Shown here one piece after another: positions 15,278 through 33,106 of a DNA stretch of 38,296 bases. The notes beneath the pieces are model-generated. The model was not told the origin of the DNA and made no database searches. It was given only the letters and a program-made list of their open reading frames with translations. Position numbers and translations under genes: made by a program. Each line of letters starts with the position of its first letter. Positions within the stretch are counted from its first letter, which is position 1. This DNA comes from Polaribacter sp. (GTDB lineage Bacteria > Bacteroidota > Bacteroidia > Flavobacteriales > Flavobacteriaceae): NCBI GenBank assembly GCA_030731625.1, contig JANQTQ010000201.1:1-38296 (forward strand). Direction: 5' to 3'.

Positions 15278-15310
15278 GACTTTATATAATTGTTTATTAT
15301 TCTTCTATTT

Positions 15311-16597
15311 TTATTCTACTGATTTTATTTCTCTCGCGAAATAATAAATTGCTCCTAAACCAAGTGGAACTGCTGCTGCAATTGCAACGAATATTGGTGT
15401 ATAAGAAAATTTCTCTTGTATAATTGGTACTAAAAAATTCATAAGAATTACAGAGAATACACCAACCATACCAGCTAAACCAGCTAAAGACCCTACTGAT
15501 TTACCACTAAATAAATCACTTGGTAACGTTTGTACATTTCCAATTGCAAACTGAAAACCAAATAATACAAAGAAAACAATTGCTACAAAACGTTCTGGTG
15601 AATCACCAAATAACACAGTTGCAACAAGTCCTAAAAACATGATAATACCACCAATTAAAATTGTATATTTTCTTCCCTTATCAATTGAATTTGTTTTCGT
15701 AATAATTTTTCCAGAAAATAATCCACCAGCAATACTACCAAGAGCTGCACCTACATAAGGAACCCAAGCAAACATACCTACTTCTTTTACATCAAAACCA
15801 TAAACGTCTGCTAAGTAAAGTGGCATCCAACCTACAAACAACCACCAAATTGGTTCCAAAAAGAAACGCCCCATAACAATTGCCCAAGATTCTTTATGAG
15901 ATAAAATTTGTTTTAAACTTAATCCTTTAGTTTCCGAAGTTGCTTCTTGGTCTGCTTTACTTTGACCTTCAATAATATGTTTTTGTTCTTCTTTTGTAAT
16001 CCAAGGATGCGTTTTAGGTCCTGATTTATTTACCAATAACCAAGGAATAATCCATAATAAACCAAATGATCCAATAATCATAAAAGTAGTTCTCCAACCA
16101 TAGGCAACAAATAAAGTTGCAATAAATGGTGGTGCAATTACAGACCCAATAGAAGCTCCTGCATTAAATAAACCTTGAGCAAATGCTCGTTCTTTAATTG
16201 GAAACCATTCTGCATTACTCTTAACACCTCCTGGCCAATTACCTGCTTCAGAAAGACCTAAAGTACTTCTAAAAATTGTAAGACCTACTAATCCTCTAAC
16301 AGTTGAGTGTAAAAATGAAGATAAACCCCAAACACCTATACTGATAACATATCCAATTCTGGTTCCAACCTTATCAAATAATTTACCAGAAAACAATTGA
16401 CCTAGTGCGTAAAACACCATGAAAATATTTAAAATTAAACCATAATCACTTTTGGTTAAACCCAATGATCCAGAAATAGAATCTGGTTGATCACTACTTC
16501 CCCACATTATTGCTAATGCACTTCTATCAATGTAATTAATTACAGTAGCTAAAAATATTAACCCTATGATAAACCATCTTAATCCTTTTACTTTCAT
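15311..16597 (-). CDS. MFS transporter, probable uronate/DEH uptake
   Basis: 428-residue major facilitator with about twelve membrane spans. The start NYIDRSALAIMWG, the loop-2 motif GKLFDKVGTRIGY and the SEAGNWPGGVKSNAEWFP segment are typical of the anion:cation symporter branch that includes hexuronate transporters such as ExuT. In the alginate locus it most likely moves DEH, or other unsaturated monomer, across the inner membrane. It precedes the SDR gene by 33 bp and follows the GntR gene by 191 bp. No TTGGTWWACCAA operator and no clear TAnnTTTG box were found in that gap, so it may be read through from the regulator gene. Confidence 0.88.
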   Translation of the reverse strand: MKVKGLRWFIIGLIFLATVINYIDRSALAIMWGSSDQPDSISGSLGLTKSDYGLILNIFMVFYALGQLFSGKLFDKVGTRIGYVISIGVWGLSSFLHSTVRGLVGLTIFRSTLGLSEAGNWPGGVKSNAEWFPIKERAFAQGLFNAGASIGSVIAPPFIATLFVAYGWRTTFMIIGSFGLLWIIPWLLVNKSGPKTHPWITKEEQKHIIEGQSKADQEATSETKGLSLKQILSHKESWAIVMGRFFLEPIWWLFVGWMPLYLADVYGFDVKEVGMFAWVPYVGAALGSIAGGLFSGKIITKTNSIDKGRKYTILIGGIIMFLGLVATVLFGDSPERFVAIVFFVLFGFQFAIGNVQTLPSDLFSGKSVGSLAGLAGMVGVFSVILMNFLVPIIQEKFSYTPIFVAIAAAVPLGLGAIYYFAREIKSVE

Positions 16598-16788
16598 TAT
16601 TATTATTTAATTAAGGTGCTTAATAATCTAAAAACTAAATACTTAGCACGTTTTGCATCTAGTTTTGGCATTTAAATAAATCTTTATTAAACTATTTAAT
16701 AATTTATTTTATTGATAAGAACTTGTAAATTGTTCTATGTCTAGTAATAAATTATAAAATTATTATTCTTTAAAAATTAATTTATTTT

Positions 16789-17493
16789 TTATTTAATGTT
16801 ATAGCAATACTGATACAATTCTTTAAAATGTTCTTTCATTTTTAGTTTTGCTAATTGAGGATTTTGATCTTTAATGGCGTCATAAATAGCTTTGTGATCA
16901 GCTATTCCTCTTTTAGTTAAACCAATATCACAAACATGATGTTTTTTAAAATTGGTAATAATTCCTGGTGTTATAATCAGCATAAAAGTATTCATTGTAC
17001 TATTACCACATGCCTTAGCGATAGCTAAATGAAATAATAGATCTTCTTGAACTGCATCTTCACCATTTAAAACTTTACTATCATAAGCATCTAGTGCTTC
17101 TTTAATTTTAATTAAATCGTCTTCTGTTCTATTTGTAGCGGCTAATCCTGCTGTTTTTAACTCGAGTAAAATTCTAGTTTCTACCAAAGATCTAAAATCT
17201 GGTATTTCTAATCTTAAAATATCCTCAATCATACCATTTAAGGCTATTATACCTATGTTAGCTACAAATGTTCCACTTTGCGGAATAGAAACTAATAAAC
17301 CATAAAATTCCAACTTTTGTATTGCTTCTCTTAGAGCATTTCTAGACACTTCAAACTTTTCTGAAAGCATTCTTTCAGATGGTAATTTATCACCTGGTTC
17401 TAAATTCTTAAAATTTATTAAATCTCTTATTTTAGAAATAATTTCTTTTTGAAAGCTAGAACTATCCGATTTTGTAAGTGTCTCTAATTTCAT
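16789..17493 (-). CDS. FadR-type GntR transcriptional regulator
   Basis: 234-residue regulator. N-terminal winged helix (about residues 12-80) with the GntR signature GDKLPSERMLSEKFEVSRNALREAI; C-terminal FCD ligand domain (about 95-225), all-helical, with an acidic/histidine pattern (LLFHLAIAKACGN) typical of organic-acid sensing. The FadR/UxuR branch often recognises TTGGT-ACCAA-like palindromes and uronate ligands. Such palindromes occur in pairs at four promoters of this locus (23345, 26381, 27613, 32854), so this protein is the leading candidate repressor, relieved by DEH or KDG (inference). No such palindrome is in front of its own gene. A -7-like TATATTTG lies at 17517-17524. Confidence 0.88.
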   Translation of the reverse strand: MKLETLTKSDSSSFQKEIISKIRDLINFKNLEPGDKLPSERMLSEKFEVSRNALREAIQKLEFYGLLVSIPQSGTFVANIGIIALNGMIEDILRLEIPDFRSLVETRILLELKTAGLAATNRTEDDLIKIKEALDAYDSKVLNGEDAVQEDLLFHLAIAKACGNSTMNTFMLIITPGIITNFKKHHVCDIGLTKRGIADHKAIYDAIKDQNPQLAKLKMKEHFKELYQYCYNIK

Positions 17494-17556
17494 TTTTTTT
17501 GTATTTTATATATCTACAAATATAAAAAACTATTTAATGTTTGTACTTGTATTGAT

Positions 17557-17598
17557 TAACACACATTTCTAAAACTTTCATAATAGTAATGTGTGTTA
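17557..17598 (-). terminator. Hairpin downstream of the SusCD operon
   Basis: 11-bp perfect stem TAACACACATT / AATGTGTGTTA with a 20-base loop, 33 bp past the PKD lipoprotein stop and 64 bp before the GntR start. There is no T tract, so it could instead be an operator or leader structure for the regulator gene. Confidence 0.4.
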
Positions 17599-17630
17599 TT
17601 CTTTTAAACAGTTTTTATTTTTACCTTGAA

Positions 17631-18578
17631 TTAATTTACAGGATATACTTTTACATTATCAACATACAATTCATCATTTGTAATTGCATACATCCAAATA
17701 GCTATTTCTCCTGTTGCATTTGATGAAAATACTTTTTTAACAACTTTAAAATTACCTTTACCATTTGCTTCGTCTCCAACAGTTTGAACTAAAGGAGTAC
17801 TAACTTCAGCGTCAGCTCCGTCATCATACCAACCATCTAAAATTTCAACGATAACTCTATCTCCTCCATTAATATCATCCTTATCTGTTTTAATTGCATA
17901 ACTATATTCTATAATATAGTTAGTATTTGGAGTAACCGTAATTGCTTGATAAGCAAATCTAGTAGAACTACTTAATAATGGTCCGGCAGATGTAGAACTT
18001 GTATATTTAGCGCCAGGTGTTTTAGAAGAACCAGAAGGTGTACCATCGTAATTTAGAGGATCTCCATCAGAACTAGCATTAAAAGCATTTGTATTTCTTC
18101 CTGTAAAGCTAGAAGGTTTCCAGTTACTTGTCCCTTCATCAAAATTTCCATTTAAAATTTCTGGATAAATTGAAGGTGGAACAATTGGTTCAATAACTTC
18201 TACGGTTGACGTAAATGTACTTATAACACCTAATTTATCTGATGCTGTTAAGGTTACTGAATAAATACCTTCACCTGGAAACGTATATTCTGCATCAAAA
18301 GTTGAAAACATATCTATCTCACCATCACCATCACTATCTAAACCAAAATCCCAAAGATAAGTAGTTGCACTTGTTGATAAATTTGAGAATGTATATGTTA
18401 AATAATCTGTAGTTACAGTAGCTTTAAAATTAGCTGCTGGTGGTGTTAAATCTGGCTTTGAATTTGCTTCTGGCAATTCAAATTCAAACAAATCACTACA
18501 AGATGTAAAAGTAGCGCCAACTAAAATTACAAACACAAATAGAAAGATTTGTGAAACTTGTTTTTTTATTTTTTTCAT
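17631..18578 (-). CDS. PKD-domain surface lipoprotein at the SusE/F position
   Basis: 315-residue lipoprotein (C27 in TFTSC). A PKD domain (about residues 48-130, with YLWDFGLDSDGDG) is followed by a beta-sandwich carbohydrate-binding-like domain (about 137-315: ILNGNFDEGTSNW, QAITVTPNTNYIIEYSY, DELYVDNVKVYPVN). It follows susD by 20 bp and occupies the place of SusE/SusF proteins, which bind polysaccharide outside the cell. It is expected to bind alginate or its oligomers on the outer membrane surface. The second domain shares layout and the x-V-x-x-N-T-N-Y segment with the type IX-secreted protein at 26653-27570. Confidence 0.8.
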   Translation of the reverse strand: MKKIKKQVSQIFLFVFVILVGATFTSCSDLFEFELPEANSKPDLTPPAANFKATVTTDYLTYTFSNLSTSATTYLWDFGLDSDGDGEIDMFSTFDAEYTFPGEGIYSVTLTASDKLGVISTFTSTVEVIEPIVPPSIYPEILNGNFDEGTSNWKPSSFTGRNTNAFNASSDGDPLNYDGTPSGSSKTPGAKYTSSTSAGPLLSSSTRFAYQAITVTPNTNYIIEYSYAIKTDKDDINGGDRVIVEILDGWYDDGADAEVSTPLVQTVGDEANGKGNFKVVKKVFSSNATGEIAIWMYAITNDELYVDNVKVYPVN

Positions 18579-18598
18579 TTTTTTTGTTTTTAATTTAA

Positions 18599-20065
18599 TT
18601 AATTATACCCAGCGTTTTGTTTCATTACACCTTTACTCAAGTTTATTTCATTTTGAGGAATAGGTAATAATAAATCTGTTGTTGAAAAATTGAAACCGCT
18701 AGCACTCGCAAATACAGAAAGTTTTGATGGTGCTTCTCCAAATCTGATTAAATCAAATAATCTATGATTTTCAAAAGCAAACTCAACTCTTCTTTCTAAT
18801 AATAAAGCTTCTTTTGTAAGTTTTGATGGACGATCAGTAGCAGCATCAAAACCTGCTCTAACTCTAACCTTCATATAAGCATCAATTGCTTTTGTGTTTG
18901 AAGTTTCTGTACCACCAGCTAAAATAGCTTCTGACTCCATTAACAATACATCTGCATAGCGTAATACAATAAAATCATTACCCGCTAATTGTGGTAAACC
19001 TGTAAATGTTTGACCATCACTTCCTCCAGTTTCTCCATCAGGAAAAAATTTAGCTACTTGGTATCTTACGGTACCTCCAAAAAGTGTTAAAGGATCTGGT
19101 CTATAAGAATCAGCTATTCTATTTCCACCATTAGCATCAATTGCTGCTACGGCGTCGGTTGTAACATAATTAACACCACTAGTATTACCAACAGCATTCA
19201 TAAATTCTGCAGAAAATATTTGACTATTATCTTGTACATTACTATTGTAACCTATTACAAAAATAATTTCGTTACTACGTTCTGAATAAAACACATCATG
19301 GAAATTATTCTGCAAAGCATATTTATTACTATTTATAATTTCTTCACATAAAACTTGTGCCTTAGCATACTCTGGTGTATCTAAAGATAAATAAACTTTG
19401 GCTAATAAAGCTTGTGCAGCAACTTTAGATGCTCTTGTTTTATAAGGAAGATCTAAATAATTAACAGCTGTTAGTAAATCGCTAACGATTAAATCATAAA
19501 TTATACTTTTATCAACTCTTGTAAATTGAACTTCAGTCTCAGATGGAGAAATAACACGGTCTATTAATGGCAAATCACCAAATAATCTTACTAAATTAAA
19601 ATACGCGTACGCTCTTAAAAATTTTGCTTCTGCTTCAATTTTATTTGCTGCTGTTGCATCTTCAACAACACCAATATTAGCTAATACAACATTTGCTCTG
19701 TAGATAGCTTGAAAATAACTAGTATAATAATTTCCTACAAAGTTGTTTGTTGGCAATACATTTAAACTTTCAAGTTGACCTGCATCAGAAGCATCTTCTG
19801 AATCTGGACTTTTAGTACTTGTATTGTCACTTCGCATTTCTGTTACATAAAATTCCCATTGAACTCCATGATTATCATTTTTACTGTTACTATTAATTCC
19901 TTTAATAGCAGCGTAAACACCAATTAACCCCGTTTCTAATTCATCTGCATTAGAATAATAGTTATCGGTTGTAATAGAAGAGCTTGGCACAGGCTCTAAA
20001 AAGTCGCTACAAGAAAAGAATACATTTCCTATTAAAATTATAGCGATATATTTAAAATATTTCAT
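18599..20065 (-). CDS. susD: SusD-family alginate-binding outer membrane lipoprotein
   Basis: 488-residue RagB/SusD protein with lipobox NVFFSC (C19) followed by SDFLEPVPSSS. TPR-type helices, the YFNLVRLFGDLPLI segment and the C-terminal VEFAFENHRLFDLIRFG and LLLPIPQNEI motifs are family hallmarks. SusD lids the SusC barrel and captures oligosaccharide at the surface; the locus identifies alginate oligomers as the ligand. It starts 31 bp after susC and is followed by the PKD lipoprotein, a conventional SusC-SusD-SusE/F unit. Confidence 0.95.
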   Translation of the reverse strand: MKYFKYIAIILIGNVFFSCSDFLEPVPSSSITTDNYYSNADELETGLIGVYAAIKGINSNSKNDNHGVQWEFYVTEMRSDNTSTKSPDSEDASDAGQLESLNVLPTNNFVGNYYTSYFQAIYRANVVLANIGVVEDATAANKIEAEAKFLRAYAYFNLVRLFGDLPLIDRVISPSETEVQFTRVDKSIIYDLIVSDLLTAVNYLDLPYKTRASKVAAQALLAKVYLSLDTPEYAKAQVLCEEIINSNKYALQNNFHDVFYSERSNEIIFVIGYNSNVQDNSQIFSAEFMNAVGNTSGVNYVTTDAVAAIDANGGNRIADSYRPDPLTLFGGTVRYQVAKFFPDGETGGSDGQTFTGLPQLAGNDFIVLRYADVLLMESEAILAGGTETSNTKAIDAYMKVRVRAGFDAATDRPSKLTKEALLLERRVEFAFENHRLFDLIRFGEAPSKLSVFASASGFNFSTTDLLLPIPQNEINLSKGVMKQNAGYN

Positions 20066-20096
20066 AATATTATTTGTTAAATCGTTTTAAAATTTA

Positions 20097-23000
20097 TTAA
20101 AAATCTAAATTTAAACCAAGAGATATAGTGCTATAAATTGGAGAACCACCTCTTTGATACCCATATTGTGTAGGGCTTGTTTTGTCTAATGCTTCTGGAT
20201 TCCATCCTGTATAATTAGCTGCAGTTATATACATTAAGTTTTGACCTGTTGCATACACATTTAATCCTGAAATACCAAGGCTGTCTAAAACATCTTGTGA
20301 AAAATTATAGCCAATATTTACATTTCTTAAAGCAATATATGATGCATCTTGAACAATACTATTTGTAAAATATTTGTCTACTAAAAACTCTTGATTAGGT
20401 GCTGATTCTAAAACTGTTCTATTGTTATTATTACTAAACAAATAGTGGTCAGCAATATTTCTTACTTCTGCCCCATGAGATCCTTGAAACATAAAAGAAA
20501 TATCAAAATTTCCAAGTTTAAAATCATTTGTAATACTCCAAATAAATTCTGGATAAGGGTTCCCTAAAACTGTTTTATCTTCACCATCTAAAACACCATC
20601 TCCATTTAAATCTTTTACATAAACCAAACCAGCTTCTGCACCAACATGTCTCCACGGTCTATCTCTATCTTCAAATTCTAATTCTTTATCTACCACATAC
20701 CCATAATATAATGATATTGGTTGACCTTCAAGATTAATCCATTCTGCAGGTCTACTAGGATCTAAACTTGTAATTTGACCATCTGAATCTGCAAAATCTA
20801 CTAACGTATTTTTATTCGTTGTTGCGATAAAAGATGTGCTCCATTTAAACTTTTCTTTACTAATATTTTTAGTTCTTATTTCAAGTTCCCAACCTTCGTT
20901 TTTAACTTCACCTAAGTTTACTAAAGCTCCTGTAAAACCTGTGGTAGATGATATTGGATTGTTAAGTAATAATTGATCACTTGTTCTTCTATACCAATCT
21001 AATGAACCAGATATTTTATTGTTAAATAAACCAAAATCTACACCTGGATTTATTTCAACTAAACGCTCCCATTTTAATTCATTATTCGCAATATTTACAG
21101 GAGAAAAACCTGCTTGAATACTACCGTCTACAGAATAACTAGAATTTGCAGCACCTAAAAGCGCTAAATGTGGATAATAATCTACCAAAATATTACCTGT
21201 ACTTAAAGTTGGCTCACTACCTTGTGCATCTGCATCTGTTGAACCAGTATTTAAACGGTCATTACCAGTAACACCATAACTAACTCTAAGCTTTAAATTT
21301 GTTACCGAATTACTATTTGAAAGAAAGTCCTCTTTAGCTATATTCCAACCAATAGAAGCAGCAGGAAAATTACCATATTTAGTTTCTGATCCAAAAATTG
21401 AACTTCCAGCTCTTGTTAAACTTAAAGAAGCTAAATATTTATCATCAAAAGCATAATTTACTCTTGAAATTAAGGCTACGTAACGTTTTTGCCATTCAAA
21501 ACCATCAAATTCAGAAATAGCAGTTGCGTTTGTAATTTGTTGCACTACATCGTTTGTATATCCTGTTCCTTTAAATCCTGAGTAGAAATAATTTCTACTT
21601 TCAAGTGAAGTACCCGCTGTAAAACCGATATCATGTTTACCAAAAGATTTGTCATAGTTAAAGAAATTATCTACAATAATATAATTTTCTTTTTGAGAGA
21701 TCTCTTGCATATAAGCATCTGTAATACTTTCTCTTGCTTGAGTCCCCATATAATCTATTCTCTTAGTATCATTATAAGAACCAGCAAGTGATGTTTTAAA
21801 ATTTAAATCATCTGTTATTTCATATTGTGCGTATAAACTACCAAATAATTGAAACTTTTTATCTGATCTATTTCGCTCTACAATTCTGGCATACGGATTT
21901 GCATTGTTACTATTACCAATATTTGTTAAAATATTATCAATAACACCATCTCCATCTAAATCAAAAATTGTAAAATGATCTTGTCTTGCATAATCACCAA
22001 CTTGCATACTTGCATAAGCACCGTTTGGATTTATATATTGAAGTGATTGTTCTGTATGATAAATAGGTAACCAAGGCTGATGTCTTGCTACGTTATGAAT
22101 ATTTTCTGAGAAACGTCTTCTATCAGTAAAAGTTGGGCTAAAATTAGCACCAATTTTAAATTTGTCACTTATTTTACTATCTATTTTTAATCTTACCCCT
22201 AATTTTTTATAATTATCTACTAACAAAACACCTTCGTCATTAGAATAATTTAAACTTACAGTAAATTTTGTTTTATCATCACCACCTCTAACTGATAATG
22301 CATGATTGGTAATTGTTCCTTGTTCAAAAAACACATCTTGCCAAGAACGATCTGTTCCTATTTGTAATTGTGCTTGCGTATATGGAGATAATTCTAAACC
22401 TAAAGCAGTTTGTTTATCTGCCCATCCTTGCGTTGTAAAACCATAAGCAGAGCTCTTTCTTGGAGTTTTTACACCTGTAAAAGTACTATAGTTAATTCTT
22501 GTTTTACCAGAAACACCAGATTTCATAGTAATCATTATAATACCATTAGAACCCTTTGGTCCAAAAACAGCAGAAGAAGCTGCATCTTTTAATATTTCAA
22601 ATGACTCAACATTATTCATATTTAATGAACCTAAGAAACTTGAATCTACAATTACACCATCAACAACTATTAACGGAGTAGAATCTCCAGCCATAGAACC
22701 AACACCTCTAATAGTAATCGTTGGTGCCGAACCTGCTTCTCCATCCGTTGCTTGGATGTTTACCCCAGATACCTGACCTATTAAGGCATCATCTACCCTA
22801 GATACTGCAATTTGATCTAGGTCATCATTTGTAACTTTAGAAATAGAACCTGTTAAGTGACTTTTTTTCTGTGTACCATAACCAATAACAACGATTTCAT
22901 CTAATTGACTAGCACTCTCTTCTAATATAACATTTATTGTTTTTTGATTTACTATAGCAACAGTTTTAGTAGCATATCCTAAATAAGAAAATTCCAAAAC

Positions 23001-23210
23001 TTGACCGGAAGCTACCTTTAAACTATAAACCCCGTCAAAATCTGTTTGCACACCCTTAGTAGTATTTAGGATTCTAATTGTCACCCCTGGCAAAGGAGTA
23101 TTATCGCTTTTAGAAGTTACAACACCTGTTATCGTAGATGTTGTTTGTGCATAAAAGCAAATGTTTACTAACATTACCATTAATAATGTTAATTTAAATT
23201 TTAATTTCAT
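20097..23210 (-). CDS. susC: SusC-family TonB-dependent transporter for alginate oligomers
   Basis: 1037 residues, normal SusC/RagA length. Signal peptide ending CFYAQ, carboxypeptidase-D-like domain (about 28-105, GVVTSKSDNTPLPGV), plug with VIGYGTQKKSHLTGSISKV and VSGVNIQATDGEAG, then a 22-strand-type barrel ending STISLGLNLDF. Two calcium-type loops appear (DLDGDGVIDN and DLNGDGVLDGED). It imports oligosaccharides delivered by SusD using TonB energy. It is the first gene of the SusC-SusD-PKD operon, with promoter and double operator 135 bp upstream, leaving an unusually long untranslated leader. Confidence 0.96.
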   Translation of the reverse strand: MKLKFKLTLLMVMLVNICFYAQTTSTITGVVTSKSDNTPLPGVTIRILNTTKGVQTDFDGVYSLKVASGQVLEFSYLGYATKTVAIVNQKTINVILEESASQLDEIVVIGYGTQKKSHLTGSISKVTNDDLDQIAVSRVDDALIGQVSGVNIQATDGEAGSAPTITIRGVGSMAGDSTPLIVVDGVIVDSSFLGSLNMNNVESFEILKDAASSAVFGPKGSNGIIMITMKSGVSGKTRINYSTFTGVKTPRKSSAYGFTTQGWADKQTALGLELSPYTQAQLQIGTDRSWQDVFFEQGTITNHALSVRGGDDKTKFTVSLNYSNDEGVLLVDNYKKLGVRLKIDSKISDKFKIGANFSPTFTDRRRFSENIHNVARHQPWLPIYHTEQSLQYINPNGAYASMQVGDYARQDHFTIFDLDGDGVIDNILTNIGNSNNANPYARIVERNRSDKKFQLFGSLYAQYEITDDLNFKTSLAGSYNDTKRIDYMGTQARESITDAYMQEISQKENYIIVDNFFNYDKSFGKHDIGFTAGTSLESRNYFYSGFKGTGYTNDVVQQITNATAISEFDGFEWQKRYVALISRVNYAFDDKYLASLSLTRAGSSIFGSETKYGNFPAASIGWNIAKEDFLSNSNSVTNLKLRVSYGVTGNDRLNTGSTDADAQGSEPTLSTGNILVDYYPHLALLGAANSSYSVDGSIQAGFSPVNIANNELKWERLVEINPGVDFGLFNNKISGSLDWYRRTSDQLLLNNPISSTTGFTGALVNLGEVKNEGWELEIRTKNISKEKFKWSTSFIATTNKNTLVDFADSDGQITSLDPSRPAEWINLEGQPISLYYGYVVDKELEFEDRDRPWRHVGAEAGLVYVKDLNGDGVLDGEDKTVLGNPYPEFIWSITNDFKLGNFDISFMFQGSHGAEVRNIADHYLFSNNNNRTVLESAPNQEFLVDKYFTNSIVQDASYIALRNVNIGYNFSQDVLDSLGISGLNVYATGQNLMYITAANYTGWNPEALDKTSPTQYGYQRGGSPIYSTISLGLNLDF

Positions 23211-23344
23211 AATATTATTTTATGTTTAAAAATATAATTCATTAAATCATAATTGTGAATTTTTAAAAATATTTCAAAAGAGAATTGATTTTTTAAAAAA
23301 CACATTTATAATAAATACTAAAAATTGTTATGGTTAAATAATTA

Positions 23345-23397
23345 TTTGGTTAACCAAATTGGTTAACCAAAAATAAATTATTTTATTTATAAAACAA
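23345..23397 (-). promoter_or_regulatory. susC promoter with double TTGGTTAACCAA operator (site A)
   Basis: Two perfect palindromes TTGGTTAACCAA at 23346-23357 and 23359-23370, starts 13 bp apart. On the minus strand the distal one runs into the -7 box TATTTTTG (23368-23375); TTG at 23395-23397 gives a spacer of exactly 19 bp. A repressor here would cover the transcription start. Confidence 0.85.
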
Positions 23398-23420
23398 AAA
23401 AAAATGTTAATTATTTTATA

Positions 23421-23450
23421 AAACCTTCATTATTAGTAGTAAAAAGGTTT
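23421..23450 (-). terminator. Candidate terminator of the PL17-kdgF operon
   Basis: 7-bp stem AAACCTT / AAGGTTT with a 16-base loop and a short T run on the minus strand, about 100 bp beyond the kdgF stop. Moderate. Confidence 0.45.
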
Positions 23451-23552
23451 CAATTTTGTTAAAAATATTTAAATCTATCAAATTAAGAAATGATAAAATT
23501 ATAAAATATTATAATAACTCTAATTTATACCCTTTATAAATATTGTTTCTTA

Positions 23553-23927
23553 TTAAGCTTTATCACCAAAATAAGATACTGCTCCTCCACTTAAAAAATC
23601 TTCTCTTACTGGACTAAAAGTGTCAATTAACATTCCTTCTTCTAGGCAAATTGCGCTATGCAGTAAATTAGGCTCAATGTAAACACCGTCTCCTGCTTCT
23701 ACAATTTTTTTCTCACCATTAATTTCAAATTCAAATTTACCTGAAACACAATAAGTAGCTTGTGTATGAAAATGTTGATGAGGAGAACCTAAAGCTCCTT
23801 TTTCAAATTTTACTTGAACCATCATAATTTGGTTGTCATAGCCCAAAAATTTTCTTGATACTCCTCCACCAAGAACTTCCCATTCCATATCTTTTGTAAT
23901 GATATACTTTTCGCTAAATCTATTCAT
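23553..23927 (-). CDS. kdgF: KdgF-like cupin, unsaturated uronate ring-opening enzyme
   Basis: 124-residue single-domain cupin. Metal-binding residues visible: H50 and H52 in PHQHFH, Q56, and H90 (NLLH), the H-H-Q-H set used by KdgF. KdgF converts the 4,5-unsaturated monouronate released by alginate or pectin lyases to its open 2-keto form, feeding DEH reductase. It lies 22 bp after the PL17 gene and is certainly co-transcribed, linking monomer release to processing. No signal peptide, so cytoplasmic. Length is typical. Confidence 0.9.
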   Translation of the reverse strand: MNRFSEKYIITKDMEWEVLGGGVSRKFLGYDNQIMMVQVKFEKGALGSPHQHFHTQATYCVSGKFEFEINGEKKIVEAGDGVYIEPNLLHSAICLEEGMLIDTFSPVREDFLSGGAVSYFGDKA

Positions 23928-23949
23928 TTTTTCTATTTTTATGATTAAT

Positions 23950-26226
23950 TTAATTGTAATAATAAGAACCTTTCCAATTATATTCTTTATTATCTATTGT
24001 AATTGTATGATTTTTTTCTTTTGAGTTATCCTTATTAGAAATAATTAAAACTTTAGTTTTTTTGTTTACCGTTGTAATTTGTACAGCCGTATAAGTATCT
24101 GTATCTAAAATAATTTTTAATTTTTCAATATTAGAATATGCATTTAATGCAAGTTCAGTAATAGGGCTATAACTACCATGAGATTCTATAACAGTAGCAA
24201 AAGTTGTATTCTGTGCATTTTTTCTTCTAATAATTAATGATGGTTCTCTTCTTAAATTATAATCTGGATCGTGGGCTCCTATTCTAGCCAATATTAATTC
24301 ATCAGAGGTATTAGATGTGGTTGTTAATGAATAAAATAAATTATTATTGATCCATGAGAACACACTATTTTCTGAAGAAGGATTTCCTAAACCTTCTTTC
24401 CATAAATGTTGATACCCATTCTTTGTTCCTAAACTTTCTAGCTGAGAAAATGATTTATAATCAAAATTTGCAGTTATAATTTGACCTAAATAAAAATACG
24501 GTAAATCATATTGATTTTTAGTTGCTGATTTCACTTTAAAAAGATCAACAATAAAAGGTTTTTCAAATTCTTCATCTTTGATGATTGCAAATGTTCTAAG
24601 CATTTCTGTACCAGGATACGCATTTACTTCTGTTGCACTTACAATTTTAATATTTGGATTTTTATCATCATAGAAATATAAATCTGAATGATGTTGGCTG
24701 CCTATTTCAAATTCACCTTTAAAATGATTTTCTTCATTTACAGAAAGTGTATTATGCGCAATGGTTTGTTTTGCCCACGTTTTATTTTCTTTTAAATAAT
24801 TTCCACCACCTTTCTGTTCAATGTTTACAAAACGTGACAATCCGTAATCTTGAATTATTTCATTTCCGTTTTCGTATAAAGAAAAAGATAACTTGTCATA
24901 ATGTCCATGACTAGATCCTTGAGAAGCATATTTAAAAACTAACTCTAAACTTTCGTTTCTTAAAATACCTACTCCGCCTTCATCGCCATTTCTTCCATCA
25001 GATAAATTAATAGATTTTTTTGTAAAATTCTTTTCTAAACCCTCTTTAATTCCGATGGCAATTGACAACCCTGTATCATCTAAAACAACTTGATCTTGTT
25101 TTTTGGCAATACTTAATAACTCAGGATTATTTCCACCATAATGATATGCTATATCCACCGCAGAAACCAATGCTGCTGTATAATATGACATTCCTTTTTG
25201 ACCATCGTTTAAAGGAAAAAATTCTCCATCAGCATCTGTTAAATTTATCAATGCATTCACAGCTTTTAATAAAACGCCATCTTTATACTCAAATATTTTT
25301 AATTCTGGTTTTACATTATGCATAGCCTGTGCAAAAATCAAAAACGGATACATTGCATATCGCTGATAATAAGGACCTTCATTATAATATCCATCTGGAG
25401 AAAATGGTTCATCTAAGTTACCAAAGAAACCTAATCTCTGTCCTTCAATTTTAATAAAACCACCATCATTATCTTTCATATCAGCAGTTAAATTGTCTGT
25501 TTTTAAACCATTTAAAGCATTTTCTAAAAGTTCATCATTATCCATCACTAAGGCAATCATACCTACAGCTACATTACCCCAAGTACTATGATTATGAACT
25601 CTATTAAAAAACTGTGGATTTCCTTCAGAAATAAACTTTGCAAAAGGTATAAATAAATCGTTCTCTAAAACGTCTCTTTCTTCTTTTGATAACCAATCAT
25701 AAATACAATCGTAAGCTTGAGCAGTATAAACTAACCAGTTTGAATCATTAAGACATTGCCAAAATAATTTACCTCTTGCATAAGATCTTGTTTGAGGATG
25801 AACTGGTAAAGTTGGATATAATTTTGCATACGCAAACAGCATGTCTTTTACATACGTTGCATATTTTTCATCATTTAAAATCTGATATAAAACGCCTGCC
25901 TTTTGCATTAATAAAAAGTTACTTTTATGTCTTTCATGGGTATAACCTCCAGAAAAATCTTGCGGAACGGGAACAAAAATACCTAACTCTATTTCTGCAT
26001 CCACTTCTGCTTTTGTTGTAGCTAATGATCTATCAAAAATTGGCACATTTCCTAAATGCTTTCTAATATTATTTACACCCTCTTTTGTTAATATTAATTT
26101 AGGATGAGCACCTTGTATTGCTACTTCTTTATTTGAAGTACTTTGAGATGTTGTTTTACAAGAAACTAAAAACATAAATACTATTAAAAATAGTACGTTT
26201 TTTGCTGTATTTTTTTTAAAATTCAT
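23950..26226 (-). CDS. PL17 oligoalginate lyase, lipoprotein
   Basis: 758 residues. Lipobox FLVSC with C23; N-terminal alpha/alpha toroid (about 40-390) and C-terminal heparinase II/III beta-sheet domain (about 400-700, with SSHGHYDKLSFSLYENGNEII). Catalytic N212 and H213 lie in the NHSTW motif and the tyrosine in DGYYNEGPYYQRY (280-287), matching exolytic PL17 enzymes such as Alg17C. It removes unsaturated monomers from alginate oligomers, probably in the periplasm after SusC import. First gene of the two-gene PL17-kdgF operon with operator site B 155 bp upstream. Confidence 0.94.
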   Translation of the reverse strand: MNFKKNTAKNVLFLIVFMFLVSCKTTSQSTSNKEVAIQGAHPKLILTKEGVNNIRKHLGNVPIFDRSLATTKAEVDAEIELGIFVPVPQDFSGGYTHERHKSNFLLMQKAGVLYQILNDEKYATYVKDMLFAYAKLYPTLPVHPQTRSYARGKLFWQCLNDSNWLVYTAQAYDCIYDWLSKEERDVLENDLFIPFAKFISEGNPQFFNRVHNHSTWGNVAVGMIALVMDNDELLENALNGLKTDNLTADMKDNDGGFIKIEGQRLGFFGNLDEPFSPDGYYNEGPYYQRYAMYPFLIFAQAMHNVKPELKIFEYKDGVLLKAVNALINLTDADGEFFPLNDGQKGMSYYTAALVSAVDIAYHYGGNNPELLSIAKKQDQVVLDDTGLSIAIGIKEGLEKNFTKKSINLSDGRNGDEGGVGILRNESLELVFKYASQGSSHGHYDKLSFSLYENGNEIIQDYGLSRFVNIEQKGGGNYLKENKTWAKQTIAHNTLSVNEENHFKGEFEIGSQHHSDLYFYDDKNPNIKIVSATEVNAYPGTEMLRTFAIIKDEEFEKPFIVDLFKVKSATKNQYDLPYFYLGQIITANFDYKSFSQLESLGTKNGYQHLWKEGLGNPSSENSVFSWINNNLFYSLTTTSNTSDELILARIGAHDPDYNLRREPSLIIRRKNAQNTTFATVIESHGSYSPITELALNAYSNIEKLKIILDTDTYTAVQITTVNKKTKVLIISNKDNSKEKNHTITIDNKEYNWKGSYYYN

Positions 26227-26380
26227 TTAATCTATGTGTTAAAACTATTCCTAAATATTATTCTCTATTCAATTTTACTTATGCTTAACTTATTACAACC
26301 TTAAATTTAAAACTAGTATGTAACTAATTCTATAAACACTTTAATTTTTATACAAATAAGATAAAAAACACAACTTAAAA

Positions 26381-26432
26381 TTGGTAAACCACTTTGGTTT
26401 ACCAAATATAGCCTTATTTAAGTTTTTATCAA
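26381..26432 (-). promoter_or_regulatory. PL17-kdgF promoter with double operator (site B)
   Basis: TTGGTAAACCAC (26381-26392) and TTGGTTTACCAA (26394-26405), 13 bp apart; together they also form a larger palindrome. The minus-strand -7 box TATATTTG (26403-26410) overlaps the second site and TTG (26430-26432) lies exactly 19 bp upstream. Confidence 0.85.
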
Positions 26433-26599
26433 AAAAATAACTTAGAAATTTATAAAGTATAAAATTATAGTTGTGAATTTTAATTCAAAAAAAAGCAATT
26501 AATAATAACCTCTAACAAATAATTATGAAAACAATAGAGTTTACTACATACTATTGTTAAAAAATTAACTTTACTAATGTATAAAATTTAATTTTACAA

Positions 26600-26630
26600 A
26601 AAAAGCCCATTTTAAAATAATGGGCTTTTT
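26600..26630 (-). terminator. Terminator of the type IX-secreted beta-sandwich gene
   Basis: 12-bp stem AAAAAGCCCATT / AATGGGCTTTTT with a 7-base loop, 23 bp past the stop codon; strong intrinsic terminator. Confidence 0.88.
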
Positions 26631-26652
26631 AAGATAAAAAATATGATGCTAA

Positions 26653-27570
26653 TTACTCAATAATAACTTTTCTTGAACCTACAAGATCGTTACTAGTTAC
26701 TTTTAAAATATAAACTCCTTTTGATAATTTAGAAGTATCAATTCTGTCATTTGTTAATGAAGAAGCGCTTAAAACTTTTTTACCAATTAAATTAAACATT
26801 TCTACACCAGTAATGTTTTCATTTGAAGTAATTTGAATAAAGTTTTTTGCAGGATTAGGATATACGCTAATTTTAGATGAGAAAATATCATTTACAGAAG
26901 CAATTCCTCCTGTGTTAGTTAAAGATACTTCGTCAATTCTAATTTCAGAACTTCCATTAGACCAAGAATAACCTTTACCATCTGCATCTGCAGTAGTTGG
27001 TCTACCAATTCCTCTACCAAAAATAGCGATACTAGTATTATCACCTGAGTTAAAAGTTAACTCTCCTGTTCTATAATCTTTATCTCCAGGATGTGCAATA
27101 GTAGCAGAAACTAAATTATTAGAAGCATTTTCAACACTCGCAATTAAAGTGTATCCGAAACCAATAGATTTTCCATTAGCAGGATCTTCATAAGCAGGTG
27201 TATAACCAGAATCATAACCAGAACCTTTTAATATTCTCATTTCTAATGAAGAAGCTTCTGTAGCAGTAGCTTTATCATCAAAATTATAAACATAAGTAAA
27301 TTTGTAATTTGTATTTGCTAATACAGCAACTTCTTGATACATAATATCTGCTTCAAGATCATCAAATTTAGCACCGTAAGAAGTAGAAGAATTCCAAGAA
27401 GAAGACTCCAATTGATCTCCTAAATCTTTATTCATCCAACCTGTACAAGAACAAGCACTAGAACTACCCTCTCTAGTAAGAGGATCTAAAGTTGCATTAA
27501 TAACTGTAGGTTGTTGTGCAAATAAACTTGCACTTGCTATTAAAGCAGCAAAAAGTAATGTTTTTTTCAT
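26653..27570 (-). CDS. Type IX-secreted beta-sandwich protein of the alginate locus
   Basis: 305 residues. Signal peptide (ASASLFAQ), a single beta-sandwich domain (about 22-222; cysteines in SSACSCTGW), and a type A sorting domain (about 232-305: ISVYPNPAKNFIQI, VEMFNLIGKKV, LSKGVYILKV) that directs export by the type IX system. No lyase motif is recognised. The domain resembles the second domain of the SusE/F-position lipoprotein (17631-18578), suggesting an alginate-binding module. It has its own operator/promoter (site C) 43 bp upstream and its own terminator, so it is a single-gene unit in the same regulon. Role inferred. Confidence 0.78.
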   Translation of the reverse strand: MKKTLLFAALIASASLFAQQPTVINATLDPLTREGSSSACSCTGWMNKDLGDQLESSSWNSSTSYGAKFDDLEADIMYQEVAVLANTNYKFTYVYNFDDKATATEASSLEMRILKGSGYDSGYTPAYEDPANGKSIGFGYTLIASVENASNNLVSATIAHPGDKDYRTGELTFNSGDNTSIAIFGRGIGRPTTADADGKGYSWSNGSSEIRIDEVSLTNTGGIASVNDIFSSKISVYPNPAKNFIQITSNENITGVEMFNLIGKKVLSASSLTNDRIDTSKLSKGVYILKVTSNDLVGSRKVIIE

Positions 27571-27612
27571 AATTGTAAATTTAAATATTAATTATTGATT
27601 ATTGATTATTGA

Positions 27613-27664
27613 TTGGTCAACCAATCTGGTTTCCCAAATTTAAGTTTTTTTTTTGTATCCTCAA
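27613..27664 (-). promoter_or_regulatory. Promoter with double operator (site C)
   Basis: TTGGTCAACCAA (27613-27624) and the weaker CTGGTTTCCCAA (27626-27637), 13 bp apart. Minus-strand -7 TAAATTTG (27635-27642) overlaps the second copy and TTG (27662-27664) is exactly 19 bp away. It lies in the 146-bp gap before the type IX-secreted gene. Confidence 0.82.
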
Positions 27665-27716
27665 AGACTTTAACAAAAAATAATTTTAAAATTTGATTTT
27701 CAAATAGTTAAAAATC

Positions 27717-29942
27717 TTAATTAAGTGTAAAATTATCTAAAGGATTTATTTTTAAGGGATCTTTAATACTCCCTTTTATTGATGAATTCATGTAAAAAGA
27801 TTTATAAAATAAGGATTGGCAATACATTTTATCTTGTTCAATTTCCATGAAAAAATCTACTTTTTCATTGAATTCTATATCTGAATTCTTAATCTTTATT
27901 TTTTTAACGCCAAAAAAGAATATTTTATTTCCTTTTGATATCGTAGTATTTGCATCTGATTCGATAGTAGATTCATTTACTTTCCATCCTCCCACATTTG
28001 GATTCTTATTAGTTTCATCTAATCGATCATCAAATTTAGAAAATGGAAACAAAACTGTAATAAAATTAAAATATTTACTGTTATTTTTTGAAACAACAAT
28101 CCATTCTTTTCCGCGAGCTCCATCAGTTAAAATTGTATCAACTTTATGTAATTGATAAATATCCAAACCAGATCCATTTTGAAAACTTGAACGCAATAAA
28201 TTTGGGGAATTTTCTATACTAAAGTGTCCTTGCCAAACTTGTTTATAACTATGGTTTTTATCTGATGAGAAATTGTCTTTTACAATCCAAAAATCATTTT
28301 CTACATGTAGAACTTGTCTAGAATACTGTACTCCAACATTTTCAAATCCATCATGATTGCCTATAAAAACTTCTAACTCTTTCTCTTTTTGAAACGCAAC
28401 AACTTTAGGGTTTGGTAACTGCAAAAACTTACCAAAACCACTTCCTCCTTTATTAGATGCATACTTTTTACCTTGTAATTCATCATCAACCAATGCAACA
28501 TTTTTAGTCATTGAATTTTTAAATAATTCTAAATCACTTAAAGAATACCGCACTTGGTAATTTGGTAACACAACATTACCGTTTGCAAATGCTTGAATAC
28601 CCAACATATCGCCATGTTGATGATCTGGTTTTTTAGCATCTACGCCAGCTGAAATAACTAACATTTTATCGTTATTTCGCCAACCTTCTCTCATTATATA
28701 ATAACCCGTTTCAGGAAAACTAATAGAATTAAAACTCGGTTTTTCTTGTTGTATATTTTGTAAATTTTCTAACTGATTTTTACTCGTATACCAATACATT
28801 TTTTCGCTAACCTTATTATTTGCAAAATAACCGAAAGACTTATTTTCAAAAAGTAAATACCCTAAAGTAAGTGCTTCTGAAATATCATTTTTTTCTGCCC
28901 AAGGAGTGTCTGTATCATCAGAAAAAACAGGTGCAGATGTATCTGGAAAAGCAATTTTTGTTAAGGTTGTAAAAAGCGATTCTAATTTATTTTTCCAAAA
29001 ATCATCCACTTTAATAGTACTATTTTTAGCCAATTGATATACATAAAAATAATTACCAATATCGCTTATATGATAATGAACAGTTCTTTCAAATTGAAAT
29101 CCGTCTTCATTAATTTCTTTTCGTAAATGCTCTTCTAACAATTTCATGGAATGTGTATACCACAAATCTGTATCAACAAAATCTCTAAATAAAATAGATA
29201 TCATTGCTAAAGCCGATAAACCTCTTGTTTGATGATTGCCAGAATGAAATTCTTGATTTGTTTCAAATAAATTAGCACCATGTTGCAGCAAAGTTGCAAT
29301 AGTTGTTAATTGTTCTTCGTCTGAATATGCTTTTTCTCCTAAAAATAGATTGTGAATTTCTAACCAATTTAAAACCCTGTAACCCGATCTAAAAGCCTCA
29401 TAAACACCATTTCCATCTTCTATAGTTTCAAACTTATTTTGAGATAAAGCTATATTTAAAGACGTAACTTGTTCTGTAAAATAATCTATATATTGAGGAT
29501 CTTTTTGCTGATAAAAATATGAAAAAGCAATATCAACCATTTTATGTTGACGCGCTAAATGTCTTAACGCATAGGCATTTACCGCTTCTCCATTTTTGTA
29601 ATTAAAAGGTAGTTTCCAAACTGTATTTGCAGGAAATTTTTGTAAATGATCTACACCTCTTGAAATATGATTTGCTGACGCATTTGGATACAATTTAGTA
29701 TATTCTTCAAAACGATCATTTACCGTTTTGTAGTTATAAAAATATCTCTCAGAAAATTTTTCTCTAAAATAACTAGCTAATTTCTCTGTTGATATTTTAT
29801 CATTTTCTGAAACATTTTTTTTAGCTGTTTCAGTTAAGTAATGCTGTAGTTCTGTAATTTTTAAAACTTTAGTACTTGGTATATTTTGCCCGAATCCGAG
29901 AGTAGAAAAAAAAATTAAAAATAGCGTTTTTAGTAGTTTCAT
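27717..29942 (-). CDS. Heparinase II/III-type polysaccharide lyase, probable alginate lyase
   Basis: 741 residues with signal peptide (STLGFGQ). The alpha-toroid N-terminal half carries FHSGNHQTRGLSAL (N and H near residues 240-241) and FERTVHYHISD (possible catalytic Y); the beta C-terminal half has KKPDHQHGDMLGIQAFANGN. This is the PL12/PL15/PL17/PL39 fold group, and the locus makes alginate or oligoalginate the likely substrate. The exact PL family is not decided; it is clearly not a close copy of the PL17 enzyme next door. No lipobox, so probably periplasmic. Unlike its neighbours it has no clear TTGGTWWACCAA pair upstream. Confidence 0.78.
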   Translation of the reverse strand: MKLLKTLFLIFFSTLGFGQNIPSTKVLKITELQHYLTETAKKNVSENDKISTEKLASYFREKFSERYFYNYKTVNDRFEEYTKLYPNASANHISRGVDHLQKFPANTVWKLPFNYKNGEAVNAYALRHLARQHKMVDIAFSYFYQQKDPQYIDYFTEQVTSLNIALSQNKFETIEDGNGVYEAFRSGYRVLNWLEIHNLFLGEKAYSDEEQLTTIATLLQHGANLFETNQEFHSGNHQTRGLSALAMISILFRDFVDTDLWYTHSMKLLEEHLRKEINEDGFQFERTVHYHISDIGNYFYVYQLAKNSTIKVDDFWKNKLESLFTTLTKIAFPDTSAPVFSDDTDTPWAEKNDISEALTLGYLLFENKSFGYFANNKVSEKMYWYTSKNQLENLQNIQQEKPSFNSISFPETGYYIMREGWRNNDKMLVISAGVDAKKPDHQHGDMLGIQAFANGNVVLPNYQVRYSLSDLELFKNSMTKNVALVDDELQGKKYASNKGGSGFGKFLQLPNPKVVAFQKEKELEVFIGNHDGFENVGVQYSRQVLHVENDFWIVKDNFSSDKNHSYKQVWQGHFSIENSPNLLRSSFQNGSGLDIYQLHKVDTILTDGARGKEWIVVSKNNSKYFNFITVLFPFSKFDDRLDETNKNPNVGGWKVNESTIESDANTTISKGNKIFFFGVKKIKIKNSDIEFNEKVDFFMEIEQDKMYCQSLFYKSFYMNSSIKGSIKDPLKINPLDNFTLN

Positions 29943-30013
29943 ATTATTATTTTTAATTGCCTACAAAATGGCATTACTCTACAATTTGGTATCTTTTAAT
30001 AATACAAGCAATC

Positions 30014-30127
30014 CAAAAAACAGGTGTTTTTTGAATTACATATATCATATCTGAGGGACAATCTATATTTTTGCTGCTTTTGTTCTAAGTTAATTTTGCT
30101 GATGATTTTTTTGCCAATAGAACAAAA
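30014..30127. repeat. Two inverted repeats upstream of the heparinase-type gene
   Basis: CAAAAAACA / TGTTTTTTG with a 2-base loop (30014-30033), then TTTTGTTCTA (30078-30087) with its inverse TAGAACAAAA (30118-30127). They lie in the 241-bp gap where the promoter of the 741-residue lyase should be; no TAnnTTTG box could be placed. Possible regulatory sites. Confidence 0.35.
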
Positions 30128-30183
30128 AACAGATATGCAATTAATTACAAATAATTTAAGAGACCTTTTAAAATCATATAAAA

Positions 30184-30216
30184 AAATCCTGCAAAGTTTA
30201 AAACCTTGCAGGATTT
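30184..30216 (-). terminator. Terminator of the PL6 unit
   Basis: 11-bp stem AAATCCTGCAA / TTGCAGGATTT, 8 bp beyond the PL6 stop, followed on the minus strand by a T7 tract. Strong. Confidence 0.9.
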
Positions 30217-30223
30217 ACAATGA

Positions 30224-32524
30224 TTAATACATTAATTTTAATTTCAAATTTTGAACTATTTCTACAGAACCAGAATTAGTAATCGTATTATCTACAGGAG
30301 CTTGCCCTTTTTCTCCCCAAAGAGTTGCAATTACTTTAACAGGATTATTGTTAAACATATTATTTTTAAATTCTACATTTACAATACCTCTATTTTTAAT
30401 TAAGATTTTTTCTGATGATAATTTACCAGAGTTTGTTACTAAATTATTATCAAAAACCAAGTTACCTCCTATTGTAGATTCATCATAACCGCCTCTGTAA
30501 TAATCTAAAATAGTTTCTGATATATTAAAGAAAGTTGTTTTTGTAATTAATACAAACTCAGCATTATAATCTCCACCATCGTTTGTTTCTTTATTTAAGT
30601 TAATACCACTTAAACAATTTTTAATAGAAGAATTAGCTACAGAAATTGTATCTGCAAATGATCCTTTTGAAACTTCTAAAACCGCTTTAAAGTCTAAAAT
30701 CTCAGAATTATTGATAAATAAATTATAGGCTTTAGACATGTTTTTATCTAAAGTAGTAAATGCATTTTGGCTGTTATCTCCTTTAATAATTACATTTTCT
30801 AAACGCAAGTTCCCTTTTGGCTCCATTAAAAAAGCAGTATTTACTGATGTAAAATTAAGGGTTGCTTTGGTGTTTTTATCCGAAGAAACAATTTTAATTT
30901 CTTTGTTAATTGATATTGATTCAGAAACAGCGTATTCTAATGCACTTAATTCAATGATATCTCCAGATTTTGCATCTTTAATTGCTTTTGATAATTCTGA
31001 TGACGTTGCCACTTTAAAAATTGTTGCTTCAACTTTTACTTTATCTGATGAAAACCAAGTTGTACCATATTTTGTTTTATCAATTAAAACAGTTTTTGCA
31101 GCTACCGGATTTATAATTGCACCAATAGTATTTGCCGATGCTCTTTTTGCACCAAATAAATCTGAATGGATTTTATCAAAATTAAATCCATTATAAACTT
31201 CAGAAATATTAGCAGTTGGTACAAATAAATTTTCTGAAATTTTGTTTACAGTGAACTCTTGTTTTGTAATTCCGTCTGAAGTAACATCACTTTTATTTTC
31301 ATTATTGGTAATGTTGTTTTTAAAAGTAACACCGTCAACTTTGTCGTAATTATAAATAGGATATTCTGCTTTTGTAGCATTATAAATAGAATTATTAGAA
31401 AAAATGGTTCTTTCTGGTCTTGCAGAACGAATTTCAGAAGCTGGTAAAACATCACTTTTATCAACATTAGAACCTACACTAAAATACCAAGGCGTTGGGC
31501 AATCTACCCAAGAATTATAAGCAACAACAACATCTGTAACTTGATTATATCTATTTAAAGGAGATTTAGGTATTCCGTTCATTACAGCAATTGCAGCTCT
31601 AAATTCTTCTCCTTTTAATTTATAGAAATAGTTATTTGTAATCCAATGTCCTGTATTTACAACCCTTACACCTCCAATAAATTTAGAATTATCATTACCA
31701 ATAAAAACGTTTCCATCAATCGTTGCATAATTACCATGTCTTAAAACTAAAGAACCTTCACTTTCAAAGAAAACATTGTTTTTAAAAATATTAAAATTAG
31801 ATTTACTAGAAATTATTTCTACTTCACCATTACAACGATCAAATAAGTTGTTTTCTATGTTTGTATAAGAAGGCGTCATTGATGTTCCGCTATCACCTAT
31901 TTGTAAAGTTTCGCCATGAGGGCCACCTTTTCTTGGTCTTGGTCCAAAATGATTATTTATAATTTGATGATGATTATTAATATGCTCATTCCCTTTTAAA
32001 ACAACCATAACTGTTGGTCCAAAATTAGATTTCCCAGCAATATAATTATTACTTAATTCATTATTTTGCCCCCAAAATTCTACCCAATGATCAGAAACAT
32101 CTCTGTCTAATTGTGTAAACTCTTCTATAACACAATTGGTTACCTTAGAGTGAAAAGCAATTTTTTCATCATCAATTTTAAAACGGATTAAAGCTCTTGT
32201 TGGTGAATATCCATTTCTAAAATGAAGGTCTTTTACTACTAAATAAGTTCCTCCAATTTGCAAGTTTGATTTTCCTTCAATAAAAACTTTACCTGGCGTT
32301 TCTGCTCTTAAGGTTATTGGTTGTGCCTCAATCCCTTCTCCAAAAAACTCAATTTTAATGTCTGTATAGGTTCCGTCTTTAAGAACAATATCATCCCCTG
32401 CTTTTGCTTTCTGAATTGCTGCTGTTAACTCAGACTCATTACTTACTAAAATAGTATTTGTTACCTTTTCTTTACAAGAAACGAGTACTAAAAATAAACT
32501 GATAATTAAAAATGATTTGTTCAT
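30224..32524 (-). CDS. PL6 alginate lyase, lipoprotein
   Basis: 766 residues. Lipobox VLVSC (C17). Two parallel beta-helix parts: the catalytic one at about 25-400 and a second right-handed helix at about 500-760, the two-domain PL6 layout. The Bronsted base lysine is K241 (ISSKSN) and the acid arginine R262 (LRHGN), as in chondroitinase B; the calcium-type acidic patch is the nearby CNGEVEI. It cuts alginate, often MG or poly-G/poly-M stretches, at the outer membrane. It starts 20 bp after the PL7 remnant and has no promoter of its own in that gap, so it depends on promoter D at 32854. Confidence 0.93.
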   Translation of the reverse strand: MNKSFLIISLFLVLVSCKEKVTNTILVSNESELTAAIQKAKAGDDIVLKDGTYTDIKIEFFGEGIEAQPITLRAETPGKVFIEGKSNLQIGGTYLVVKDLHFRNGYSPTRALIRFKIDDEKIAFHSKVTNCVIEEFTQLDRDVSDHWVEFWGQNNELSNNYIAGKSNFGPTVMVVLKGNEHINNHHQIINNHFGPRPRKGGPHGETLQIGDSGTSMTPSYTNIENNLFDRCNGEVEIISSKSNFNIFKNNVFFESEGSLVLRHGNYATIDGNVFIGNDNSKFIGGVRVVNTGHWITNNYFYKLKGEEFRAAIAVMNGIPKSPLNRYNQVTDVVVAYNSWVDCPTPWYFSVGSNVDKSDVLPASEIRSARPERTIFSNNSIYNATKAEYPIYNYDKVDGVTFKNNITNNENKSDVTSDGITKQEFTVNKISENLFVPTANISEVYNGFNFDKIHSDLFGAKRASANTIGAIINPVAAKTVLIDKTKYGTTWFSSDKVKVEATIFKVATSSELSKAIKDAKSGDIIELSALEYAVSESISINKEIKIVSSDKNTKATLNFTSVNTAFLMEPKGNLRLENVIIKGDNSQNAFTTLDKNMSKAYNLFINNSEILDFKAVLEVSKGSFADTISVANSSIKNCLSGINLNKETNDGGDYNAEFVLITKTTFFNISETILDYYRGGYDESTIGGNLVFDNNLVTNSGKLSSEKILIKNRGIVNVEFKNNMFNNNPVKVIATLWGEKGQAPVDNTITNSGSVEIVQNLKLKLMY

Positions 32525-32544
32525 AATACTTTATAATAATTTGA

Positions 32545-32824
32545 TTAATGTGTAATTGATAAATTGTAATATTTAATTCTAGAAAAAGCATTTGCTTCTG
32601 TAGATCTTAAATAATTACCTGCTTTATAATAATATTCAAATGGCCATTTTGCAAGACTTACATCTTTGTAATTATATGGCGTATCGTTATTTAATTGTAA
32701 CTCAATTTTACCTTTAGGTGCGGTAATTCTAAAATCGTAAGCATTAAAATCTTCATTAATTTCAACATGAAAATACAAATAAAAAGGAAATAAAGAGAAA
32801 TAAAAACCTGAATTTTCTATTCAT
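32545..32824 (-). pseudogene. Remnant of a PL7 alginate lyase lipoprotein (internal deletion)
   Basis: An ATG at 32824 opens a clean lipoprotein signal (MNRKFRFLFLF...FVFSC, 20 codons) whose lipobox cysteine is followed at once by TGA (32762-32764). In another frame, running to 32545, about 75 codons encode the C-terminus of a PL7 lyase: KWPFEYYYKAGNYL matches the YFKAGxY motif and RIKYYNLSITH the usual ending. The RxELR and QIH catalytic motifs and roughly 200 residues are gone, and the junction shifts frame. The only start for the C-terminal piece is a TTG at 32778. Reading: a deletion fused signal and tail, leaving promoter D to serve PL6. Confidence 0.8.
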
Positions 32825-32853
32825 TTAATTATTATTTTAAAGCAAATAAACGA

Positions 32854-32905
32854 CTGGTTTACCAAATTGGTTTACCAAATATAAGAACTAATTTTGGAAT
32901 AGGAA
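32854..32905 (-). promoter_or_regulatory. PL7-remnant/PL6 promoter with double operator (site D)
   Basis: CTGGTTTACCAA (32854-32865) and TTGGTTTACCAA (32867-32878), 13 bp apart. Minus-strand -7 TATATTTG (32876-32883) overlaps the second copy. At the N19 position the -33 reads TTC instead of TTG. It lies 30 bp before the ATG of the PL7 remnant. Confidence 0.78.
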
Positions 32906-33106
32906 AAAATATTATTTTAATCTCTGATAAAGAGCAGAAAACACAATAATATAAAATAAATTAAGATGATTAAATCTGATAGAAAGATGTGTTAATGTAC
33001 TCATAATCACCACAAACAACATGAATCAAATAAAAATTTTAATTGATCACAATAGCAAAAAAGATAAGTTAATTTTATTTGATGAGGATCAGCAATTACA
33101 TTGAAA

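Follow-up and report, generated by a model that had tools for sequence, protein, structure and literature searches.

An alginate locus of Polaribacter with a probable PL7 lyase pseudogene between a conserved operator and an intact PL6 gene

The region described here is in the alginate locus of a marine Polaribacter species that degrades seaweed sugars (GCA_030731625.1, contig JANQTQ010000201.1). We refer to the whole stretch of DNA analysed, 38,296 nucleotides, as the window. On its minus strand, positions 32762-32824 hold a lipoprotein signal peptide, MNRKFRFLFLFISFLFVFSC, complete with its start codon. Translation of this frame gives 20 codons ending FSC. The lipobox cysteine codon is at 32765-32767 and TGA is next, so the reading frame is disrupted after Cys20. 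A second minus strand frame, hereafter the tail, spans 32545-32778 and encodes 77 amino acids from a TTG codon; it contains no ATG. Just 20 bp past its stop is the start of the next gene in the operon (30224-32524, minus strand). This gene is intact and specifies a PL6-type lyase of 766 amino acids that matches PF14592 along its whole length (1-426 of 426, E 2e-199). The PL6 protein is 79% identical to that of genome G026 and 76% identical to that of G152.

The PL7 family has three active-site motifs: RTELRE, QIH, and YxKAGxY. The match of the tail to the Pfam profile PF08787 (Alginate_lyase2) passes the curated cut-off (E 1.7e-7) and covers positions 150-225 of 225, so that PL7 profile similarity is confined to the C-terminal third. 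The closest PL7 C-termini from the same genus are 68-74% identical to it (E 1e-28 to 4.5e-32). At this level of identity, the resemblance to PL7 is not due to chance. The catalytic domain is incomplete: of R(T/S)ELR, Q(I/V)H, and YxKAGxY, only the last is present, as YYYKAGNYL.

We searched 166 Polaribacter genomes for PL7 (E<=1e-30). There were matches in 26, and 11 of these hold close orthologs, which are 62-78% identical to the G026 protein (G026 being counted among the eleven). The set comprises G026, G152, G019, G005, G064, G068, G121, G122, and G141, with G094 and G136 more distant. A preliminary description of the locus had pointed to orthologous loci, where an intact PL7 gene should precede PL6. 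This was found in all 11 genomes. The PL7 genes encode 301-312 amino acids and, 9-59 bp further on, there is a PL6-family gene. Nine of these are close orthologs of the PL6 gene in the window, while those of G094 and G136 are distant. Hence, relatives have an intact ortholog at the equivalent place. The same operator pair as in the window is just upstream of PL7 in nine of the 11; the exceptions are G152 and G064, in which PL7 is internal to its gene series and no operator pair is directly upstream. The intact orthologs therefore share with the window the PL7-PL6 order, mostly the same operator and, in the members compared, a C-terminus 60-74% identical to the tail. They differ in being full lyases with RTELRE and QIH motifs.

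The distance from the signal peptide start to the tail stop is 280 nt in the window, compared with 906-939 nt in the 11 intact orthologs. The net loss is 626-659 nt and, in every comparison, has the form 3n+2. Hence, the deletion shifts the reading frame. Both RTELRE and QIH fall inside the lost part. The 5' section matches the signal peptides of orthologs through the cysteine codon, and close orthologs align to the tail only from a phenylalanine codon at 32746-32748. Between these points, on the minus strand, is a joint zone of 16 nt (32749-32764) that matches neither side confidently. Assigning this zone to one side was tried and abandoned; the tail-frame translation, EINED, fits an acidic linker or a native PL7 strand, as found in distant PL7s. 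Since TGA follows the cysteine codon, and the tail frame has no ATG, no lyase can be made. We conclude that the remnant is, very probably, a PL7 alginate lyase pseudogene resulting from internal deletion. Three elements of the preliminary description are borne out by these results: a full lipoprotein signal with an immediate TGA at the lipobox cysteine, a PL7 C-terminus of about 75 residues in another frame, and an internal deletion of about 600 bp that removed the catalytic core.

Upstream of the signal peptide, on the minus strand, is a double palindromic operator, TTGGTAAACCAA T TTGGTAAACCAG (32854-32865 and 32867-32878), identified by a palindrome scan of the window and by comparison with relatives. 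Allowing up to two mismatches, the palindrome occurs 24 times in the window, where 13.3 occurrences are expected, and none of 100 shuffled sequences reached 24. Four pairs of the palindrome, TTGGTWWACCAA, with a spacing of 13 bp, are present (23346-23370, 26381-26405, 27613-27637, and 32854-32878). In the pair at 27613-27637 the second half (27626-27637) is degenerate, CTGGTTTCCCAA. The -7 promoter consensus of Bacteroidetes is TAnnTTTG. A match, TATATTTG, is at 32876-32883 on the minus strand and overlaps the operator. No clear -33 element accompanying TATATTTG was seen. The preliminary description had considered operator and promoter to be intact, with no other promoter before PL6. Consistent with this, the operator pair is present and, within 32480-33000, TATATTTG is the sole TAnnTTTG on the gene strand.

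A GntR-family regulator is encoded within the same locus (16789-17493, minus strand), and an 88% identical copy is found in the related genome G154. A study of Zobellia describes AusR, a GntR repressor, as controlling the alginate system of that organism (PMC8073546). By analogy with AusR, the GntR protein of the window is a candidate reader of the operators. A PL7-PL6 unit under a GntR-type, AusR-like repressor would be expected to have a conserved operator before it and a gene for a GntR protein nearby in the locus, and both are found here.

The preliminary description had stated that the PL7 promoter was 'now serving PL6'. The operator-promoter does serve PL6, as far as gene order can tell, but there was no switch after the deletion, since intact relatives already have PL7 and PL6 in tandem, in most cases behind the operator. 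The phrase therefore needs rewording. Furthermore, 30 PL6 loci were read, and 19 of them have no PL7 gene directly before PL6 and carry the operator 33-165 bp before PL6. Because PL6 stands behind the operator with or without PL7, we take the promoter to have been retained, rather than recruited, for PL6. In three of the genomes with no PL7 before PL6 (loci L057, L059, and L067) the leader between operator and PL6 is similar, about 140 bp long, and not recognisably PL7. No PL7 remnant was recognisable in the leaders of G099, G034, and G128 (137-139 bp), which had been considered as possible sites. Note also that the PL6 ortholog at G065:C1:3051816-3053984, in a single-contig genome, has three in-frame stops (two TAG and one TAA) and is likely a PL6 pseudogene.

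A second remnant is found in G154, whose genome of 3.95 Mb is assembled as one contig. Its alginate locus has a chromosomal position equivalent to that in the window, with genes flanking beyond the operator 68-89% identical and the same gene order (Por-tail, PL17, cupin, SusC, SusD, and GntR). Here, in locus L082, approximately 165 bp separate an intact operator from an intact PL6 gene. Translation of this stretch gives FFLLVFSYSNKDKELEPVV, which resembles a PL7 signal peptide and linker without a start codon. This is followed, in another frame, by TFSSVIY*NLSVSH*, which is like a PL7 C-terminus. The 3' fragment and intergenic stretch align to those of the window with a score of 85, compared with a shuffled maximum of 41. 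The 3' remnant is therefore strong. The 5' remnant is weak at the DNA level, near shuffle scores for most orthologs, and rests on the protein reading FFLLVFSYSNKDKELEPVV and its position. The G154 remnant is thus like that of the window in chromosomal position, operator, reduction of PL7 to its 5' and 3' ends, and an intact PL6. It differs in its breakpoints, and is more eroded. Hence, 68 codons of the tail are kept in the window, compared with the last 17 or so in G154, where there is also an internal stop. Conversely, linker codons kept in G154 are seemingly lost in the window. Since the breakpoints differ, neither remnant state derives from the other; an earlier lesion shared by the two lineages is possible. 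The PL6 proteins of the window and G154 are about 50-74% identical in the N-terminal half and about 40-55% identical in the C-terminal half. Set beside the greater identity of the neighbouring chromosomal genes, this may mean that PL6 has been exchanged in one lineage. The alginate locus itself looks like an island (14513-32883). In G075 and G072 the neighbours from both of its sides are close together and the alginate genes are absent. Orthologs of the 7963-14159 genes, and of those from 33172 onward, flank an unrelated gene of 743 amino acids (L186 and L187).

Could the real gene be intact, with the contig skipping its middle because of misassembly or strain mixture? The genome is a draft of 290 contigs, estimated to be 86.7% complete, and the exact joint is present in only one genome. 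Against this, the joint sits within a 38 kb contig, and a search of the other contigs did not turn up the missing middle: no intact copy of the PL7 ortholog was found elsewhere in the genome at E<=1e-30, and the other PL7-family genes are distant. Moreover, G154, a genome that is a single contig, shows a similar loss at this locus, and differently placed deletions in two lineages make an assembly artefact unlikely. We consider this explanation quite improbable.

Alternatively, selection might maintain the short form as a real product, either a small lipopeptide or a PL7 C-terminal domain that is anchored to lipid by way of a frameshift. In favour of this, the open tail frame retains most conserved residues, with two departures at 23 near-invariant positions. 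This is, however, more than in most orthologs, for which the median is 0. In addition, TGA comes straight after the cysteine codon, the tail frame has no ATG, and the G154 remnant has lost its start codon and gained a stop in the tail. The preliminary description had recognised that relatives might carry the same short form; named genomes yielded 80 orthologs of the tail, with no such case among them, and all were in full-length frames. This argues against a conserved short protein, and such a product is the least credible of the explanations. Only marginally less remote is the possibility that the remnant is kept as a leader because it helps to express PL6, perhaps through translational coupling from the signal peptide ORF or through a leader effect. 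The start codon and 20-codon ORF before PL6 are intact, and the operator is conserved across relatives. Conversely, about 240 bp separate the stop of the signal ORF from the start of PL6 and, in genomes without PL7 at this place, the variable interval between operator and PL6 contains no shared ORF.

Our preferred explanation remains loss of PL7 by deletion. The ancestor would have had operator, PL7 lipoprotein, and PL6 genes as one transcription unit, as relatives suggest. A single internal deletion, perhaps accompanied by small changes where the ends met, would then have removed the net 626-659 bp and, with it, two catalytic motifs out of three. As the sequence shows, the shifted frame halts translation at the lipobox cysteine codon, and the enzyme is not made. 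With operator-promoter and PL6 intact, PL6 should still be expressed in response to alginate, from the original promoter but with a shorter leader. The tip branch of the window tail ranks 6th of 51. Selection on the tail thus appears slightly relaxed at most, which is compatible with recent loss. Because the tail can still be read through without a stop and contains few unusual residues, we judge the loss to be recent and possibly a variant of one strain. It is ordinary gene decay, affecting a known family in a known type of operon.

Loss of this surface PL7 is probably tolerated, because five other PL7-family genes, all above the family cut-off, remain in the genome alongside other alginate lyases, including a second PL6 gene (G000:C129). 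Three of the PL7-family genes, one on contig C77 and a pair on C187, have frames of 320-375 residues that carry lipobox-like signals. That PL7 at the operon head has been lost repeatedly in Polaribacter because loss is favoured, for instance by bringing PL6 nearer the shared promoter, and not merely tolerated, seems unlikely to us.

In alginate locus II of Zobellia (zgal_4130-4132), PL7 is also collocated with PL6 (PMC8073546). The likeness is that a PL7 lipoprotein gene adjoins PL6 genes in a flavobacterial alginate system; the difference is that PL7 is broken in the Polaribacter window. Among the papers covered by our literature search, none linked PL7 pseudogenes with Polaribacter, or with gene loss from alginate polysaccharide utilization loci. 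Annotators should take care not to list the tail ORF among PL7 enzymes. More broadly, the remnant captures a stage in the loss of a gene from a carbohydrate utilization locus, where the lead gene is dead and the control region is kept for the next. The second, different break in the related species G154 suggests that the operon can repeatedly do without the PL7 gene at its head, a point relevant to niche adjustment among alginate degraders.
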